Positions 1 through 45,108 of a DNA stretch of 64,000 bases are shown here, one piece after another. The notes beneath the pieces were generated by a model. That model saw only the letters and a program-made list of their open reading frames with translations. It ran no database searches and was not told the DNA's origin. This DNA is from Caldilineaceae bacterium (GTDB lineage Bacteria > Chloroflexota > Anaerolineae > Caldilineales > Caldilineaceae), in the NCBI GenBank assembly GCA_020433455.1, contig JAGRCP010000018.1, positions 1-64,000 of the forward strand, given 5' to 3'. Within the stretch, counting starts at the first letter, position 1; every line of letters begins with the position of its first letter. The translations under genes were made by a program, and so were the position numbers.

Positions 1-126
1 ACACTATCGCCCGTTATTTGACACGCAGAAAGAGACGAACGGGTCACATCTGTGTTCTGTCCTCATTGTGGTCAGCCCATGAGCATTGTGCGGCGCATTC
101 GACCGAAAGCGCGTTGCCCGTCATAG
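1..126 (+). pseudogene. C-terminal remnant of an IS91-like transposase
   Basis: The reading frame ending at the TAG at 124-126 encodes a short tail with a CPHCGQPM zinc-ribbon-like motif followed by basic residues. This resembles the C-terminal tail of IS91-type rolling-circle transposases. The same frame has a TGA at 19-21, so what is visible is at most a decayed end. A longer frame over this interval (18-422) gives a composition that does not look like protein. The link to IS91 is inferred, and rests partly on the N-terminal IS91 transposase fragment at 2885. The sequence left of the window would settle it. Confidence 0.35.
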
Positions 127-504: not shown

Positions 505-1077
505 ATGAATATTCAGAAACTAAGTGGCAATTGGAAGGCTGGTTGGGCATTGGATTTGCACACAATCAGTAGCATTCCGCTTGGTGGTGGGCATTTCGAT
601 ACAACCTATACGGATGTGGGCTATGCCCTGAATCATCTAAAATATCATCAAGATTTTAGTCAAATAGATGTGCTGGCTAAACATGTCATTGAATTTATGC
701 GAACAAGAAAGGTTACACCTTATTTAAACGCAATAATACCGACGCCAGCATCAGTGCATAGAGAAATACAACCAGTTTACGAGATAGGATCAAAAGTAGG
801 AAAAGCGCTAAACATAGTCGTAGACTTTCAGTATCTGATAAAGAAAAAGGACACAAATCAACTCAAGGAAATAGAAGATCAAGAGCAAAGAGAAGATGTA
901 TTGAGTGGCGCTTTTGATGTTTCAGACCAAAGATATGCAAATAAAAAAGTAATGTTATTTGATGACTTATATAGATCCGGAACCACTTTAAATGAGATTA
1001 CGAGCACTTTATATAAATCTGGAAAAGTTCAAAATGTCTATGTGGTGACTCTTACGAAGACTAGGAGCAAGAGATGA
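505..1077 (+). CDS. ComF-like type I phosphoribosyltransferase
   Basis: This 190-residue protein carries a type I phosphoribosyltransferase PRPP-binding motif, VMLFDDLYRSGTTL, at about residues 149-162. It comprises the acidic pair followed by the SGTT loop, as in ComF and purine salvage enzymes. The N-terminus (GWALDLHTISS near 13-23, then FDTTYTDVG near 31-39) belongs to a ComF-like subgroup without the zinc-binding cysteines of classical ComF. The stop overlaps the start of the next gene by four bases (ATGA at 1074-1077), so the two are almost certainly co-translated. Codon use is strongly AT-biased compared with genes from 4 kb onward, suggesting transfer. The substrate is unknown; a nucleotide or nucleobase role next to a SLOG protein is inference. 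Confidence 0.75.
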   Translation: MNIQKLSGNWKAGWALDLHTISSIPLGGGHFDTTYTDVGYALNHLKYHQDFSQIDVLAKHVIEFMRTRKVTPYLNAIIPTPASVHREIQPVYEIGSKVGKALNIVVDFQYLIKKKDTNQLKEIEDQEQREDVLSGAFDVSDQRYANKKVMLFDDLYRSGTTLNEITSTLYKSGKVQNVYVVTLTKTRSKR

Positions 1078-1823
1078 GTAAAGTATTCATTTCTGGGTCT
1101 ATCAGCATTAAAAGACTGCCTGCTGCTGTAGAGAGTAGCCTGGATAATATATTTAAAGAGGGCATGGAGATATTAATTGGCGATGCAGACGGCATTGACA
1201 CCATGGTTCAAAACTATTGCAGTCGAGCAAACTATAGCAAGGTTACTGTTTACTCAATTTACCCGACTCCAAGATTTATGGTTAATGGGTTTAATAACAA
1301 ATACATAATTCCAAAAAGTGATTCAAAAAAGGAGCGAGAGCTTCAAAAAGAGAAGGATGAAGCAATGACTTTGGATAGCGACTACAGCTTTGTGATTTGG
1401 GATGGAAAAAGCAAAGGAAGTTTCAGCAATGTTATTAGAGCACTGGATAATAATAAAAAAATAAAATTATTTTTGAGCGAAATAGACGGTTATATCCAAC
1501 CGAGCAAAATCACAAAAGCTGAAATTGAATTCATATTCAGAAAGAACAACGGTTACTCAGCTGCTGAAGTGGTTGAATACTTAAAAAGTGAAGGAGAAGA
1601 CTACTTTCAGCAAACAAGAGCTTTCAATAAGGCTCTTGTAGAGCACAAAATTATCAAGAAAGAGAATGGTGTTTACCTCCCGATGCCAGAGTACAAGAAC
1701 CTATTTATGATCGATAAATATAGGGGAAAGGTTACCGGCATAAGATTTACCAATGAATTTATAAATTGGGTAGAGAAATGGGTAAAAAAAATAAAACCAC
1801 CAGAAGAACAAAGCCTGTTTTAA
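1074..1823 (+). CDS. SLOG/DprA-like Rossmann protein with C-terminal winged-helix-like region
   Basis: The first ~145 residues resemble a SLOG (DprA/YspA-like) Rossmann fold: a VFISGS start at residues 4-9, then ILIGDADGIDTMVQNY at about 33-48, the usual phosphate or nucleotide-binding glycine/acidic loop. The remaining ~105 residues (from about 145) are helical and basic, compatible with a winged-helix DNA-binding or partner domain, but I cannot name the family. The gene overlaps the phosphoribosyltransferase gene by four bases and shares its AT-rich codon use. SLOG proteins are known to bind nucleotide-derived ligands or DNA and recur in conflict systems (Burroughs and Aravind's SLOG superfamily). 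Whether this one senses a product of its PRTase neighbour is speculation. Confidence 0.65.
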   Translation: MSKVFISGSISIKRLPAAVESSLDNIFKEGMEILIGDADGIDTMVQNYCSRANYSKVTVYSIYPTPRFMVNGFNNKYIIPKSDSKKERELQKEKDEAMTLDSDYSFVIWDGKSKGSFSNVIRALDNNKKIKLFLSEIDGYIQPSKITKAEIEFIFRKNNGYSAAEVVEYLKSEGEDYFQQTRAFNKALVEHKIIKKENGVYLPMPEYKNLFMIDKYRGKVTGIRFTNEFINWVEKWVKKIKPPEEQSLF

Positions 1824-2623: not shown

Positions 2624-2884
2624 ATCTAAAGCGGTCCATTTGCGGTTGCATGAATTGCAGCAGCAAGGTCAGCATAAGCCGCCGAGCCAACCTCCAGTCC
2701 ACTTGACCGGGCCTACCCTGCGCGTTATCAACGTTGTCGGCACGCTCAACCGCCCGAGTAAGCCGAGTTGTCTGCACGCTATCCGGCCCGGCAAGTGACT
2801 GAGCCGTTCAAAGAAGTTATGCGGCACGTCTGTGCGAATAGAGTGAAGTGACGACTCGAATCGTCTTATCCCCTGGAGACGAGA

Positions 2885-3651
2885 ATGGTACGGGACAACG
2901 GTATCGATCCGGCTACGCCCGAGAGGGAGTGGGAGATCGCCGACGTTTTTCGAGCGTATTTTGACGACTACCTGCAGAAGCATCACTGCACCGCCCAGGA
3001 GTTCAAGGCGGTCAATGCAATCCTGGGCTGTCGCACGGCCGCCATGGGCGAATACATTCGAATGTGCGATACGTGCGGCAATGTGGAGGTTGCCTATTGC
3101 TCATGCAAGAATCGCCATTGTCCCAAATGCGGTCACCTGGAAAAGGCGCAGTGGGTCGCAGAGCAAGAAGCGCGGCTCTTGCCGGCGCCCCATTTTCAGG
3201 TCGTCTTTACGGTTGACCATGGGGTTAACGATATCGCCCATGTGGATCCGAAGGCAATCTGCAATCTGCTCTTTCGGGTAGCGGGCAAGCTGTTGAAGGA
3301 ATATGGACGGCGCTATCTTGGGGGCGACACGGGCGCAACCATGGTGCTCCACACCTGGGGCCGGACGTTACAGCATCACATTCATCTGCATTGCATGGTC
3401 CCCGCGGGTGCATTGGTCAAGACGAGCGGAGGCCACGAGTGGCAGGAGAGCGGAAGACGTTTCTGATGCCGGTGGTCGCCTTGTCGGAAGAATTCAGAGA
3501 TGCCTTCTGCAATGGAGTCCTGAAGCTGTATGGTCAAGGCGAACTGCGCCCGGCGGGTTCAGGAAGCGAGTCGGAGGTGGAAGAGACGGTCAGAAAGATG
3601 CGGGCCAGGAAGTGGGAAGTCTATATCCGGAAGCCGCCCGCCGGTACGGAT
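2885..3651 (+). pseudogene. IS91-family transposase, frameshifted and 3'-truncated
   Basis: The frame from 2885 encodes the N-terminal zinc-binding region of an IS91-type transposase (CDTCGNVEVAYCSCKNRHCPKC at about residues 62-83) and the HUH-like motif HIHLHCMVPAG near residues 160-170. It stops at 3466. The homologous reading continues in another frame (ERKTFLMPVVALSEEFRDAF, from about 3447), so there is a frameshift near 3443-3452. Similarity ends at KPPAGTD around 3651, before the region that carries the catalytic tyrosines in intact family members. The enzyme is therefore dead. A GGAG ribosome-binding site precedes the ATG. Fused directly downstream is an unrelated gene fragment. Confidence 0.85.
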
Positions 3652-3756
3652 CGCCTGGATGGCATAGCAATGATGTTGATAGCCATTGGCGAGCAGGTAA
3701 AGCGGCTTGACGGCGCCACCGAGTCAAATCTAGACGATGCGTACAAAGGGTGGACC
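3652..3756 (+). pseudogene. Internal fragment of a HepT/DUF86-like HEPN toxin gene
   Basis: The residues following the transposase break, LDGIAMMLIAIGEQVKRLD, match the helix of HepT-like (DUF86, HEPN superfamily) proteins. Those typically read 'DGIAMNLIAIGEAVK.LDK', followed by a Leu-rich stretch and 'YP..DWK'. Here TESNLDDAYKGW follows and then the reading breaks. Neither the catalytic R-x4-6-H motif nor the N-terminus is present, so this is a scrap of about 35 codons. No MntA antitoxin is nearby. The identification is by recognised motif only. Confidence 0.45.
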
Positions 3757-13739: not shown

Positions 13740-14684
13740 CTAACTTGTCTCGTACGGCCCAAGAAAACGCCGACCGTTAAAATGAATCAGATGAGAGGGT
13801 GCTTCGGCTACCCAAACTTCCGTTTCCCACGATATGGCGGATAGATAGCGAGCCATAGTTGCCCGATCAGGGAATGTAGTTACATAGACAAGCCCCGCGG
13901 TCGAGCCGCGAAAGAGATCGGCAAGTTCTGCATGGCGCTTGCTGTCAACCGGGCCATGACTGGTCACAGATTCTACCAGCAAAAGCCAGTTTCTCACGCG
14001 GTAATAGAAGACAACATCGGGCATCTTACCGCGCGCATGGACTTGTACGCCCAGTTCTGCCAACAGTGCTGCATCGAAATAGCCCCACTTCTCGCCCGTA
14101 TCGCCTACATAAACGAGTGCGCTTCCCGGTGCAAAGCGCAGAACGAACTCTTCGATGACGGCGCGGATCAACTCGCTGTGAGCACCAGGGCTAAGCGTAA
14201 TGCGCTTACCCGGAGCGATCTCTACCGGAATACGGTTTTGCTGTCTTTCTTTCGCATACCGGACGATCAGAGTCTCACGATTTGCTAGATAATCGATGAG
14301 ATTATCATGCCATGTATGCGTGTCAAAGGTGCGAATCAAATCCAATGTAGCCGGTTCAATCTGGTAGACGGATTTAGGGCTATTTATTGGACGATCGGGC
14401 CGATCCGGGTTATAAAGCGCAATACCCGCGTCACAGAATTGATGCATCGTGTGACGCCGAATAGTCTCCCGAGTGTTAGGCGCGTAATCCTTATCATAGT
14501 GCACCTGCATCCAATCCATTATGGGCGTGATGCCCATAAGTGGACATTCAGCATCGATCCAGGCTTTATCTGGCGTAAGATTAAGCAGGGCAAGCAAACA
14601 GAGCGCAGAACGTTCGTTATGTTGACCTTTCGGCAAGCCAAGCGAGACAAGTATCCGTTGCGCAGCCTCGATTTTATCAGTCAT
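13740..14684 (-). CDS. BsuBI/PstI-type type II restriction endonuclease
   Basis: A 314-residue protein with the two-part layout of BsuBI_PstI_RE enzymes. An N-terminal helical region of about 130 residues (ERSALCLLALLNLTP, ETIRRHTMHQFCDAGI) is followed by the catalytic domain with ITLSPGAHSELIRAVIEEF, LVYVGDTGEKWGYFD and KMPDVVFYYRVRNWLLLVE. The last carries PD...(x)VE residues compatible with a PD-(D/E)XK site, then SVTSHGPVDSKRH. Family members cut CTGCAG. The gene overlaps the end of the methyltransferase gene by four bases (ATGA), so it is translated after the protecting enzyme, as expected for a restriction-modification operon. Confidence 0.88.
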   Translation of the reverse strand: MTDKIEAAQRILVSLGLPKGQHNERSALCLLALLNLTPDKAWIDAECPLMGITPIMDWMQVHYDKDYAPNTRETIRRHTMHQFCDAGIALYNPDRPDRPINSPKSVYQIEPATLDLIRTFDTHTWHDNLIDYLANRETLIVRYAKERQQNRIPVEIAPGKRITLSPGAHSELIRAVIEEFVLRFAPGSALVYVGDTGEKWGYFDAALLAELGVQVHARGKMPDVVFYYRVRNWLLLVESVTSHGPVDSKRHAELADLFRGSTAGLVYVTTFPDRATMARYLSAISWETEVWVAEAPSHLIHFNGRRFLGPYETS

Positions 14685-16177
14685 GTGGTGAGGGATTCCA
14701 GTTGCGCATCAAGTTTTTCCTGCGTCATCTCATTCTGATTCATGGACCATATTCCCAACTCGAACAAAGCTTGACGACTAGGGTATTTCATTAGTCGAAG
14801 ATCAGTCGCATTCACTTGGGTATGCCCGTTGAAACGTCGAAAATATTCATCAACTGCCGTCATATTTAAAAATGCAGTTAAGCCGTGAGCCAACTGTTCT
14901 GGTAACCCTTGCTTATTCGCATGGAAAAGATTTAAGTGATTTTCAAATCCCAGAACAGGCGCTCCATCGAACACATCCGGCTCGACCACACTTGCCACAA
15001 TGCGACGCTTTTCTTCCTTGGAGGAAAAGCGCCGAACAACACAATAGTAGCCGTTTGGATAGAGCCATTTTTCCGTATCATCATTGCGTTGGATGGCATT
15101 AGGCTTCTTTATTCCGTCCATAGGCCACGTTGTACCATCACCGCTGAAGTGGACAGGGTAGAGGAGGGGAACCGTGCCCGGCTCAGCCGTGTCTCTCAAA
15201 TGAGCTTTAAGCCGAAAATCCACAACCGGACCGGTTGACACAGTAAGGCCCAAGTCATTCAACGTGTAGCGAATTGCATCAGACTCTTCCAGCGCGTTCT
15301 TATCCAAAGAGGTCGGCACATGGATAAACCGTTCCGGATCATCAGGAAAAACGATCCGATCATAAGGATGCTCATAGGTGATTAGATCGGCAAACGTATC
15401 ATCTACAGAGGTAGAAACTGCCACCGGTCCCTGACAGCCGTCGCGTTCCAGGCGGATGATAATATTTTCCTGCAAAACGCTATCATCCTTGAAGGTGGCA
15501 TTACGCGCTTCGAACAAGTGGATACGATGTAGGGCGGCCCTCGCCAGAATGAAGTCGCGGAACGGGCGATAATACGGCCCGTTGCAGAAACTGCGCGGGA
15601 TGATGGCCACAATTTGGCCGCCCGGCGCAGTCAAAGCAACTGCCAAGGCGACAAAGGCTGAGTACAGGTTGACCGTTTCAATACCCACGCGACGCAAAGC
15701 CAGACGATGGGCAGATTTACTGTTGATCTTCTTGTAGGGCGGATTGAGGATAACATGAGTATAACGGGGCAGAGGCTTGGCGAAGAAATTGCCCGAGAGC
15801 GCATCGACCGCCGCGTGGATAAAATCTTCGGCGTAAATGTTGGCGGCGAAGTCATCTCGCCCCTCGAATTGCTGAAGGGTTTGCAACAGATGATCCAGCA
15901 GCGCAGGATCCAGCTCAAACGCATCCACTTCCACCCGCCGGAAGTGAAGCCCTCCTCTCTGCCAACGTTCCAAAAACGCCGCCGAGAGCGAGCCGATGCC
16001 CGCACCCGCATCCAATAGGCGACACGCGTCTTGATCATCCGGAAAGAGACCTGCCATAAATGTAGCCGTACTTAAAGGCGTCAAAAATTGGCCGAGCTGC
16101 GCTTTCTTTTTCGCTCGAGTCTGCTGAGAGATTTGCTTTCGTTTCTTTTCCAAAATGGACGATAAATCAGCTATCAT
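14681..16177 (-). CDS. N6-adenine DNA methyltransferase of the BsuBI/PstI-type system
   Basis: The 498-residue class I methyltransferase has an AdoMet-binding motif (LLDAGAGIGSLSAAF near residues 54-68) and the N6-adenine catalytic motif NPPYKK near 146-151. The remainder forms the target-recognition region, with a C-terminal segment (NHLNLFH...HGLTAFLNMTAVDEYFRRFNGHTQVNATDLR, noted in parts) typical of Eco57I/BsuBI-type enzymes. It methylates the adenine of the recognition site and protects the host. It is the first gene of the leftward RM operon, with the endonuclease gene overlapping its stop. The promoter should lie between 16178 and 16262, next to the terminator of the rhodanese gene. 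Confidence 0.88.
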   Translation of the reverse strand: MIADLSSILEKKRKQISQQTRAKKKAQLGQFLTPLSTATFMAGLFPDDQDACRLLDAGAGIGSLSAAFLERWQRGGLHFRRVEVDAFELDPALLDHLLQTLQQFEGRDDFAANIYAEDFIHAAVDALSGNFFAKPLPRYTHVILNPPYKKINSKSAHRLALRRVGIETVNLYSAFVALAVALTAPGGQIVAIIPRSFCNGPYYRPFRDFILARAALHRIHLFEARNATFKDDSVLQENIIIRLERDGCQGPVAVSTSVDDTFADLITYEHPYDRIVFPDDPERFIHVPTSLDKNALEESDAIRYTLNDLGLTVSTGPVVDFRLKAHLRDTAEPGTVPLLYPVHFSGDGTTWPMDGIKKPNAIQRNDDTEKWLYPNGYYCVVRRFSSKEEKRRIVASVVEPDVFDGAPVLGFENHLNLFHANKQGLPEQLAHGLTAFLNMTAVDEYFRRFNGHTQVNATDLRLMKYPSRQALFELGIWSMNQNEMTQEKLDAQLESLTT

Positions 16178-42882: not shown

Positions 42883-45108
42883 ATGAGAGTCACACAAGAG
42901 AACAAAACGCCTAGCCAATCAAGGCCAATGCAGGACCTGCCGCCCGACGCCTACGCTGTCCTGCGCCGAACCTTCGGCTATGATGACTTCCTGCCCCTCC
43001 AGGCCGAAGCGGTTCACAATGTGCTCAACGGGCAAGACTGCCTGGTTGTCCTGCCTACGGGCGGCGGCAAGTCTCTCTGCTATCAGTTACCCGCCCTCCT
43101 GCTGGATGGACCGACCGTAGTGGTTTCGCCCCTGATCTCGCTCATGCAGGATCAGGTAAGCCAATTGCGCGGGAACGGCGTAGCCGCCGCCTTCCTCAAC
43201 AGCACGCTCACCTTTCACGCGCAGGCGCAAGTCCTGCAAGCTCTGCGCGCCGGCGAGCTGCGCCTGCTCTACGTTGCGCCGGAGACGCTCCTGCGCCCGG
43301 AGGTACTGCTGGCTCTGGAAGAGAGCAACCTGGCCTGCCTTGCGATTGATGAGGCCCACTGCATCTCCGCCTGGGGCCATGATTTCCGTCCTGAATACCG
43401 TCAACTGGCGCCTCTGCGCAGTCGCTTTCCCGCCGCGGTCTGCATTGCGCTCACCGCCACGGCCACCCAGCGGGTGCGCGAGGATATCCTCGCCAGTCTG
43501 GGTATGGATAAGGGCGCGCTCCTTGTCGGCAACTTCGATCGCCCCAACCTAAACCTGGCTGCGGCCGTACGGGCGGATGACCTGAGCCAAACATTGGCGT
43601 TCCTGCGCGGCCACGAGAAACAGGCCGGCATCGTCTATTGCAGCACGCGCAAGACCGTAAACAGCTTAGCTGCTCGACTCCAGGAGGAAGGCTTCGCTGC
43701 GCTGCCCTATCATGCGGGGCTGGATGCGCCGGTCCGCCAACGTAATCAGGAGGCGTGGGTGCGGGATGATGCGGCCGTCATGGTGGCCACCGTCGCCTTC
43801 GGGATGGGTATCGACAAATCCAACGTACGCTTTATCGTTCACTACAACCTGCCCCAAAGCCTGGAAAGTTACTATCAGGAGATCGGTCGGGCCGGCCGTG
43901 ACGGACTGCCCGCGGATTGCCTCCTCCTCTACACGACCCAGGATCTGGGCTCCGTCCGTTATCACATCAATAACGGGGCGGAAAGCGAGCGTCAGGGACG
44001 GGAGCTGCGTCTTCAGGCTATGTATCGCTACGCAAAAACGCCTTACTGTCGACGCAGCGTTGTCCTACCCTATTTCGGCGGAGAGTTTCAGCCGCCCTGC
44101 GGCAATTGCGATAACTGCGCGGCTGAAGAGGCAGGACGCAAACGGATAGACGTAACCGTAGATGCGCAGAAATTTCTCTCCTGCGTCGCCCGCACCAACC
44201 AACGCTTCGGCATCAGCCACAACGTCAAAATCCTGCGCGGTTCGCGAGAGAAGAAGGTGCTCCAGTGGGGTCATGACAAGCTCTCCACTTACGGTATCGG
44301 CCTGGATCGCAGCACCGGCCACTGGAAAGAGTTGGCCCAGCGCCTCATCATTCAGGATATCCTAATCCAGGACCCCACTCACGGCACGCTCCAGCTTACC
44401 GATAGGGCGTGGGCGGTCATGAAGGGTGAGGAACGGGTGGAGATTATCCAGCAGGCCGTACCGGTCAGCAAACAAACGCCGCTGGCGGACAGCGATATGG
44501 ACCTCTTTGAGATTTTACGCGATCTGCGGAAATCCCTGGCCGACGAGGCGGTTGTGCCTGCCTACATTATTTTTTCCGATCGCTCCCTGGCGGAGATGGC
44601 CGCTCATTTCCCCCAAACCGAAGAGCAGCTCCTGGCCATGCACGGCGTGGGCGAAGCCAAGCTGGCCGCCTATGGGCAGGCGTTTCTGACCGCAATTCAG
44701 GCTTACTGCGCGGACACGGGCAAAGCATGGCGCCCGCCAAGCAAATCAGCGCCTTCCGCCGCCGGCCCCACGCCTCGCCTGGGCGCGAGCCTCCATAAGC
44801 GCCGTTTTGAGGAAGTAGGGGAACTGTTTGCCGAGGGGCAAACCGTCGAGGAGATCGCCGCCCAGTACGACGTGAAGCGACAAACGATAGTCAACCACCT
44901 TGCTAAATACGTGAATGCGGGCGGCGTGCTCCAGGCCGAACGCCTACAGGCCGAGTCACGCCTGAACGCAGCCGCCCAGGCGCGGGTCATGCAGGCTTTT
45001 GATGAGCTGGGCAGCCAGGCCCTCTCGCCCGTCTATGAGGCCCTGAACGGCGAGATAGAGTATGACGAATTGCATCTGCTGCGGCTGGTACGGGTTTGTC
45101 AAGAATAG
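42883..45108 (+). CDS. recQ: ATP-dependent DNA helicase RecQ
   Basis: The 741-residue helicase has all main RecQ elements: FGYDDFLPLQAEAV (motif 0), Walker A PTGGGKS at about residues 58-64, DEAHCISAWGHDFRPEY from about 156, the helicase C domain ending with GRAGRDG, and an RQC zinc site (PYCRRSVVLPYF, CGNCDNC). An RQC winged helix and an HRDC domain (LRKSLADEAVVPAYIIFSD) follow. The last ~110 residues form a further helix-turn-helix region (VEEIAAQYDVKRQTIVNHLAKY), as in longer RecQ proteins. It unwinds DNA 3'-to-5' in recombinational repair. A second ATG at 42928 is an alternative start, with AAGG just upstream. Confidence 0.95.
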   Translation: MRVTQENKTPSQSRPMQDLPPDAYAVLRRTFGYDDFLPLQAEAVHNVLNGQDCLVVLPTGGGKSLCYQLPALLLDGPTVVVSPLISLMQDQVSQLRGNGVAAAFLNSTLTFHAQAQVLQALRAGELRLLYVAPETLLRPEVLLALEESNLACLAIDEAHCISAWGHDFRPEYRQLAPLRSRFPAAVCIALTATATQRVREDILASLGMDKGALLVGNFDRPNLNLAAAVRADDLSQTLAFLRGHEKQAGIVYCSTRKTVNSLAARLQEEGFAALPYHAGLDAPVRQRNQEAWVRDDAAVMVATVAFGMGIDKSNVRFIVHYNLPQSLESYYQEIGRAGRDGLPADCLLLYTTQDLGSVRYHINNGAESERQGRELRLQAMYRYAKTPYCRRSVVLPYFGGEFQPPCGNCDNCAAEEAGRKRIDVTVDAQKFLSCVARTNQRFGISHNVKILRGSREKKVLQWGHDKLSTYGIGLDRSTGHWKELAQRLIIQDILIQDPTHGTLQLTDRAWAVMKGEERVEIIQQAVPVSKQTPLADSDMDLFEILRDLRKSLADEAVVPAYIIFSDRSLAEMAAHFPQTEEQLLAMHGVGEAKLAAYGQAFLTAIQAYCADTGKAWRPPSKSAPSAAGPTPRLGASLHKRRFEEVGELFAEGQTVEEIAAQYDVKRQTIVNHLAKYVNAGGVLQAERLQAESRLNAAAQARVMQAFDELGSQALSPVYEALNGEIEYDELHLLRLVRVCQE

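Follow-up and report, generated by a model that had tools for sequence, protein, structure and literature searches.

The window analysed here, the first 64,000 nucleotides of a contig of a Caldilineaceae bacterium (Chloroflexota), carries near its start two overlapping genes, one for a phosphoribosyltransferase (PRTase) and one for a SLOG-domain protein, and the question they raise is what the two proteins do together. The initial annotation saw in them the best candidate in the window for an undescribed defence or stress system; the claim of novelty is not supported, as pairs of a PRTase with a DprA/SLOG protein are already established as a toxin-antitoxin and phage-defence kind (PsyrTA, RqlHI and ShosTA). 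Analysis of the pair and its relatives suggests, with a probability of roughly 0.77, that it is a mobile two-gene module of a PRTase toxin and a SLOG antitoxin, a variant of the PsyrTA/RqlHI/ShosTA kind that has no helicase. Bearing directly on this reading are the observed order and overlap of the genes, their co-occurrence, the folds, the conservation of active-site and nucleotide-loop residues, mobility, and decay biased towards the PRTase gene.

An overlapping gene pair in an AT-rich insert

The left end of the window holds the following features:

38-261 (224 bp), no strand: left edge of the insert, probably an IS91-like tail; 73% identical to C151:45810-46035
505-1077, + strand: PRTase gene, 190 aa, proposed toxin (open reading frame)
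1074-1077, + strand: ATGA stop/start overlap (sequence)
1074-1823, + strand: SLOG gene, 249 aa, proposed antitoxin (open reading frame)
1826-1911, no strand: MITE-like insertion of ~84 bp with 12-bp inverted ends TAGAGTTGTTCC/GGAACAACTCTA; 98% identical copy on contig C81
1923-1972, no strand: dispersed palindrome with 17-bp arms; copied in part on C161, where unrelated genes flank it
1979-2623: P-loop kinase-like ORF, GC 0.47
2805-3660, + strand: truncated IS91-family transposase (5' part), right flank; Zn_Tnp_IS91 1e-30, Y2_Tnp; C143 carries an 88% copy whose left boundary is sharp

Both reading frames of the pair are complete exactly as initially drawn, and they share four nucleotides, ATGA, through which translation of the second gene would be coupled to that of the first. 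The overlap is exactly 4 nt in 49 of 93 homologous pairs and 1 nt in 8, the remainder being separated by gaps of at most 14 nt; given this spacing, the overlap is not a matter of chance. The AT-rich character reported for the island is evident in the GC content of the PRTase gene (0.370) and the SLOG gene (0.356), compared with 0.583 for positions 4064-64000 of the window. This contrast points to recent import, because the pairs most closely related to that of the window are AT-rich regardless of their surroundings (29-38% GC; the pair at locus L130 has 35% GC within a contig of 52%) and two other Chloroflexota copies have a GC content near that of their own loci. The SLOG gene is single-copy in the host genome (5.25 Mb, 172 contigs). 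Horizontal transfer, as first proposed, is supported both by the GC contrast with the host and by the carriage of related pairs on plasmids (Klebsiella, Enterobacter, Agrobacterium) and prophages.

IS91 debris does surround the pair, with the 5' part of a transposase on the right and, on the left, a stretch (38-261) of which one frame reads as a Cys-rich CPHCG C-terminus and which is probably the tail of an IS91-like element. The MITE was inserted 2-3 bp past the SLOG stop codon; it is outside the system and marks its right edge. The kinase-like ORF was rejected as a member of the system: it lies beyond the MITE, has a GC content of 0.47, and is absent from the pairs of the four closest relatives listed. 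An integron cassette was also rejected, the attC-like hairpins being the MITE, with its 98% copy on C81, and the dispersed palindrome rather than attC sites that recur behind each ORF; no palindrome array is present on C161, and the identity of 1923-1972 as attC is not supported as far as tested. At the very start of the window (1-29), the first 24-29 bp recur on contigs C115, C148, C113, C97 and C77, on C115 30 bp short of its end, as though contig breaks fall at a repeated element.

The PRTase and its SLOG partner

The PRPP loop of the PRTase (VMLFDDLYRSGTTL) is intact, as the initial annotation stated, and D153, D154 and G159 are invariant in an alignment of 37 homologues. Structures that match the AlphaFold2 model (pLDDT 95.4) are class I PRTases, among them ComF (7p0h) and ShosT (8zvb, rank 40); a search of the PDB by sequence with the PRTase profile and a search of the viral structure library both return generic PRTases only. 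In PADLOC the protein matches PsyrT at 1.2e-18, at model positions 538-687, which are the C-terminal PRTase part, and ShosT weakly at 2.9e-4 (best family member 1.4e-9), with 11/11 family members matching PsyrT and 10/11 weakly matching ShosT; retron type III-A PRTase effector models match weakly (3e-3; best member 7.5e-6). NCBIfam comF scores 46.6 bits, compared with a cut-off of 233, and in the search of domain and family models no salvage family scores above its curated cut-off.

The N-terminal beta extension of the PRTase (GNWKAGWALDLHT) places it more precisely. Its GNWxxGxALDxH is common to the window family and the RecQ-PRTase toxins (PsyrT/RqlH), whereas at this position ComF has a CxxC zinc finger and lacks the motif. 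Because of this difference, the family PRTase profile, run against 400 Chloroflexota genomes, separates full-length matches (start position 2-10, >125 bits) from partial matches (start at least 41, at most ~82 bits) that are mostly ComF-like. In the full-length set, four genes stand alone and four are RecQ-PRTase fusions, each fusion followed by a DprA gene; these fusions (L108-L111) with their DprA are PsyrTA/RqlHI proper. The stand-alone PRTases form one group in the tree, apart from ComF and from the RecQ-PRTases (support 100/97). Judged by its sequence, the window PRTase is not a housekeeping ComF.

The second protein had been described as a SLOG protein with a helical C-terminal domain, of which the first part stands and the second needs revision. 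In the AlphaFold2 model (pLDDT 95.1) a SLOG domain (residues ~1-136) is followed by a winged-helix-like domain (~146-240), in which three helices with a beta wing come first and a beta hairpin and a final helix close the chain; a KilAC-like phage antirepressor was rejected as a reading of this C-terminus, with no Pfam or PHROG support. The family alignment shows no variation in the phosphate-loop motifs GDAxGxD and WDxKSxG, nor at G36, D37, A38, G40, D42, R67, K94, D95, W109, S113 and G115 in 38 homologues, and because these loop residues are kept the domain probably still binds a ligand. The best solved structures for the model are ShosA (8zva), then a MoCo-binding-type SLOG protein and DprA, at TM-scores that are modest (0.39-0.44; ShosA 0.39 by query) because the N-terminal domain alone aligns. 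By sequence, the protein is named by no domain, family or defence-model library searched, matches nothing in the PDB, and in PADLOC has no PsyrA match at E<=1 and no ShosA match. Its relatives match DNA_processg_A, PsyrA and ShosA weakly (one member ShosA at 0.0026), and because the profile match between the SLOG family and the DprA antitoxins of RecQ-PRTase pairs is also weak (probability 4%, E 0.01), homology to those antitoxins rests mainly on fold.

SLOG partners vary behind this domain: 79 of 108 are 161-215 aa long, essentially SLOG alone; 17 of the 108 exceed 255 aa, most with an XRE/HigA-type HTH; and the winged-helix-like tail is common to the window protein and those of four other loci (L020, L021, L022 and L130). 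The C-terminus of the antitoxin is swappable, being absent, an XRE-type HTH or, in the window, a predicted winged helix. NCBI annotates some partners as 'addiction module antidote protein' because of their C-terminal HTH.

Partnership, mobility and lopsided decay

Co-occurrence of the two proteins as a pair, which the initial annotation had offered as a check, is extensive. A scan of the genome collection with the SLOG alignment finds 365 relatives; one of the best 80 of these starts at a contig end, leaving 79 testable loci. In 73 of these the SLOG gene is immediately preceded by a PRTase gene or what is left of one, which is intact in 59 cases, truncated by the end of the contig in 3, broken or vestigial in 10 and divergent in 1; at the other 6 there is none. 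The genome scan began from the SLOG gene, and the reverse, PRTase-first test covers the plasmid and viral collections. A SLOG gene lies directly downstream of the PRTase in 8/8 viral loci, and adjoins it in the plasmid records with a full-length PRTase that were inspected or matched between searches, a set outside which two K. oxytoca-type records lie; a viral scan using a single SLOG sequence returned nothing. PRTase and SLOG are partners across bacteria.

The hosts of the pair belong to many phyla and include one archaeal MAG contig, and the distribution is patchy, the stand-alone PRTase form occurring in 4/400 Chloroflexota. Full-length relatives with 63-65% identity occur in an Endozoicomonas and a viral contig. 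A further close relative (65% PRTase identity) is on the archaeal contig, a 4.1-kb piece of an Archaeoglobaceae MAG (L022); it represents either transfer across domains or mis-binning, binning being doubtful at that length. In a Gracilibacteria MAG (L023), a SLOG gene with a divergent PRTase lies within a polysaccharide-biosynthesis gene cluster. Another Chloroflexota genome (G174, locus L107) has an intact stand-alone PRTase of the family without this type of SLOG and with a DprA-like gene behind it, a possible intermediate between the window family and ShosTA/RqlHI.

The expected clustering with defence and mobile genes holds for many hosts. The pairs occur in plasmid and prophage contexts and near CBASS genes in A. 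fabrum, a restriction-modification (R-M) system elsewhere, and plasmid partition and replication genes; in a qualitative comparison, 120 neighbour proteins on genome contigs include matches to DpdF, a CBASS cyclase, a 4TM effector, AbiEi/AbiEii, capP and others, and the 30 proteins around ComF-type PRTases yield DprA (PsyrA/ShosA) matches only. Some neighbours are housekeeping genes.

When pairs decay, the PRTase is often the gene that suffers. In Agrobacterium vitis plasmids it is destroyed by a stop codon and frameshifts beside an intact SLOG gene, and the instance on the CG78 plasmid (L019/L050) is a natural toxin-dead pair that recurs in several related plasmids; in Enterobacter hormaechei the PRTase is split by an IS3 element and SLOG is intact; and about ten more loci on genome contigs have a broken PRTase beside SLOG, although sequencing errors may account for some of the frameshifts in MAG contigs. 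Those PRTases without SLOG that were examined on plasmids (L125, L127) are themselves broken, one locus (L129) has both genes in pieces, and no intact PRTase of the SLOG-paired family was seen without SLOG in the PRTase-first view of the plasmid and viral collections. This bias is the pattern predicted for a toxin-antitoxin pair, and therefore argues for the PRTase as toxin and SLOG as antitoxin.

A toxin-antitoxin reading and its alternatives

The general feature of the known systems, a tightly coupled two-gene operon of a PRTase and a SLOG/DprA-fold partner, is present in the window. With PsyrTA and RqlHI the pair shares a homologous PRTase domain including GNWxxGxALDxH, a feature of the PsyrT/RqlH lineage, and the order of toxin first with a SLOG/DprA Rossmann-fold partner directly downstream. 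It differs in that their PRTase is fused N-terminally to a RecQ-type helicase, whereas the window ORF of 190 aa starts at the PRTase extension, with no helicase among the genes adjacent to the pair; in that its antitoxin is a short SLOG of related fold with no PsyrA model match (in the same library, DprA genes at two other Chloroflexota PRTase/ComF loci score PsyrA up to 1.3e-78); and in that their clades are separate from the window family in the PRTase tree. The RecQ encoded elsewhere in the window (42883-45108) is an ordinary RecQ without a PRTase. ShosTA offers a stand-alone PRTase toxin of similar size with a SLOG/DprA-fold antitoxin, ShosA (8zva) being the best solved-structure match of the window SLOG model; in contrast, sequence similarity is weak (ShosT 2.9e-4; ShosA unmatched), ShosA is longer (308 residues in 8zva) than the usual SLOG partners of 161-215 aa, and a Chloroflexota ShosT match (L124) is not recognised by the window-family profile. 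The likeness to type III-A retrons is limited to weak similarity of the PRTase domain; the window pair has two genes with no reverse-transcriptase ORF beside it in the window, and an Rfam search found no RNA, hence no retron ncRNA. A PRTase-containing operon is also among the E. coli phage-defence systems validated by DefensePredictor (2026, PMC13092281) and may or may not belong to this family. The pair would work like PsyrTA, RqlHI and ShosTA, yet is filed with none of them, because it lacks the helicase and no model of their antitoxins matches it.

From here the model argues by analogy, in PRTase toxicity and its neutralisation by SLOG as in phage defence, ligand and autoregulation. A review (PMC12593503) describes ShosT as a PRTase that is also a pyrophosphatase and upsets purine metabolism, ShosA as a DNA-binding antitoxin, and T7 Gp0.7 as a trigger; a DprA and PRTase pair defends E. 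coli against T7 and lambda (PMC9122126). RqlH needs the pocket of its PRTase domain to be toxic, and this domain is what RqlI binds; on its own, without the rest of RqlH, the PRTase domain is non-toxic (PMC4670107), so that toxicity of a stand-alone PRTase is not assured. By analogy with ShosT, the window PRTase would use PRPP and disturb the purine nucleotide pool, leading to DNA stress and growth arrest. The SLOG protein, whose translation would be coupled to that of the PRTase through the gene overlap, would restrain the enzyme, most likely by binding the PRTase as RqlI binds the PRTase domain of RqlH, and its predicted winged-helix tail would probably bind DNA and repress the operon, a role that an XRE-type HTH may play in other family members. 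Phage infection or another stress that upsets the antitoxin would then free the PRTase, with plasmid maintenance, abortive infection or both as the outcome.

Alternatives to a toxin-antitoxin module differ in what they make of the same features. SLOG proteins occur in nucleotide-signalling conflict systems, and the invariant phosphate-loop residues of SLOG (38 homologues) and active-site residues of the PRTase would also suit a pair in which SLOG senses a nucleotide produced or altered by the PRTase, with a response by the C-terminal domain or an unknown effector. We consider this, the hypothesis of the initial annotation, unlikely, as 79 of the 108 SLOG partners end soon past the SLOG domain, leaving no effector in the pair, and loss of the PRTase first is unexpected if the PRTase makes the signal and SLOG kills. 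Fold kinship, with ComF (7p0h) and DprA among the structural matches, is also what the parallel with a competence module drawn in the initial annotation comes down to. Against an accessory DNA-uptake or competence role, which is scarcely credible, stand the separation of the family from housekeeping ComF in the tree, the zinc finger of ComF in place of the beta extension, the lack in the window SLOG protein of the N-terminal domain of DprA, the occurrence on plasmids and prophages of diverse hosts, and the absence of competence genes from the neighbourhoods looked at.

The intact PRPP loop and class I fold would equally fit an ordinary nucleotide salvage PRTase beside an unrelated neighbour; the obligate SLOG partnership, the patchy, mobile distribution and the lack of any salvage family above cut-off make this very improbable, and the PRTase is taken not to be a salvage enzyme. 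Much the same low odds apply to an inactive remnant stranded amid IS91 debris: transposase fragments and a MITE do flank the pair, but neither frame is truncated, the active site retains its residues, and full-length relatives exist in Endozoicomonas and a viral contig.

The toxin-antitoxin reading can be extended, tentatively and at well below even odds, to one in which the helicase-free PRTase/SLOG family forms a defence system in its own right, with a distinct trigger, in bacteria and perhaps also in archaea. SLOG would then be both antitoxin and sensor of a ligand, such as a nucleotide or PRPP-derived signal changed by phage infection, and the swappable DNA-binding tail would turn what is sensed into renewed expression of the operon. 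With 365 SLOG relatives across the genome collection, the module is widespread, and it is annotated only as 'ComF family protein' with 'hypothetical' or 'antidote', and defence catalogues relying on PsyrTA/ShosTA models would miss it. Having no helicase and often no more than a SLOG domain as partner, it offers the simplest form of the system for studying how the PRTase toxin acts and how SLOG restrains it.

Two other loci in the window lie on the minus strand. A type II R-M pair (13740-16177, 51% GC), the second defence locus in the window, consists of a BsuBI/PstI-type endonuclease (13740-14684, 5e-61) and an overlapping Eco57I-type methylase (14681-16177), and a gingipain-type Peptidase C25 (50784-53576) is encoded in an AT-richer stretch of 46-47% GC beside a Big_9/CshA-repeat protein.
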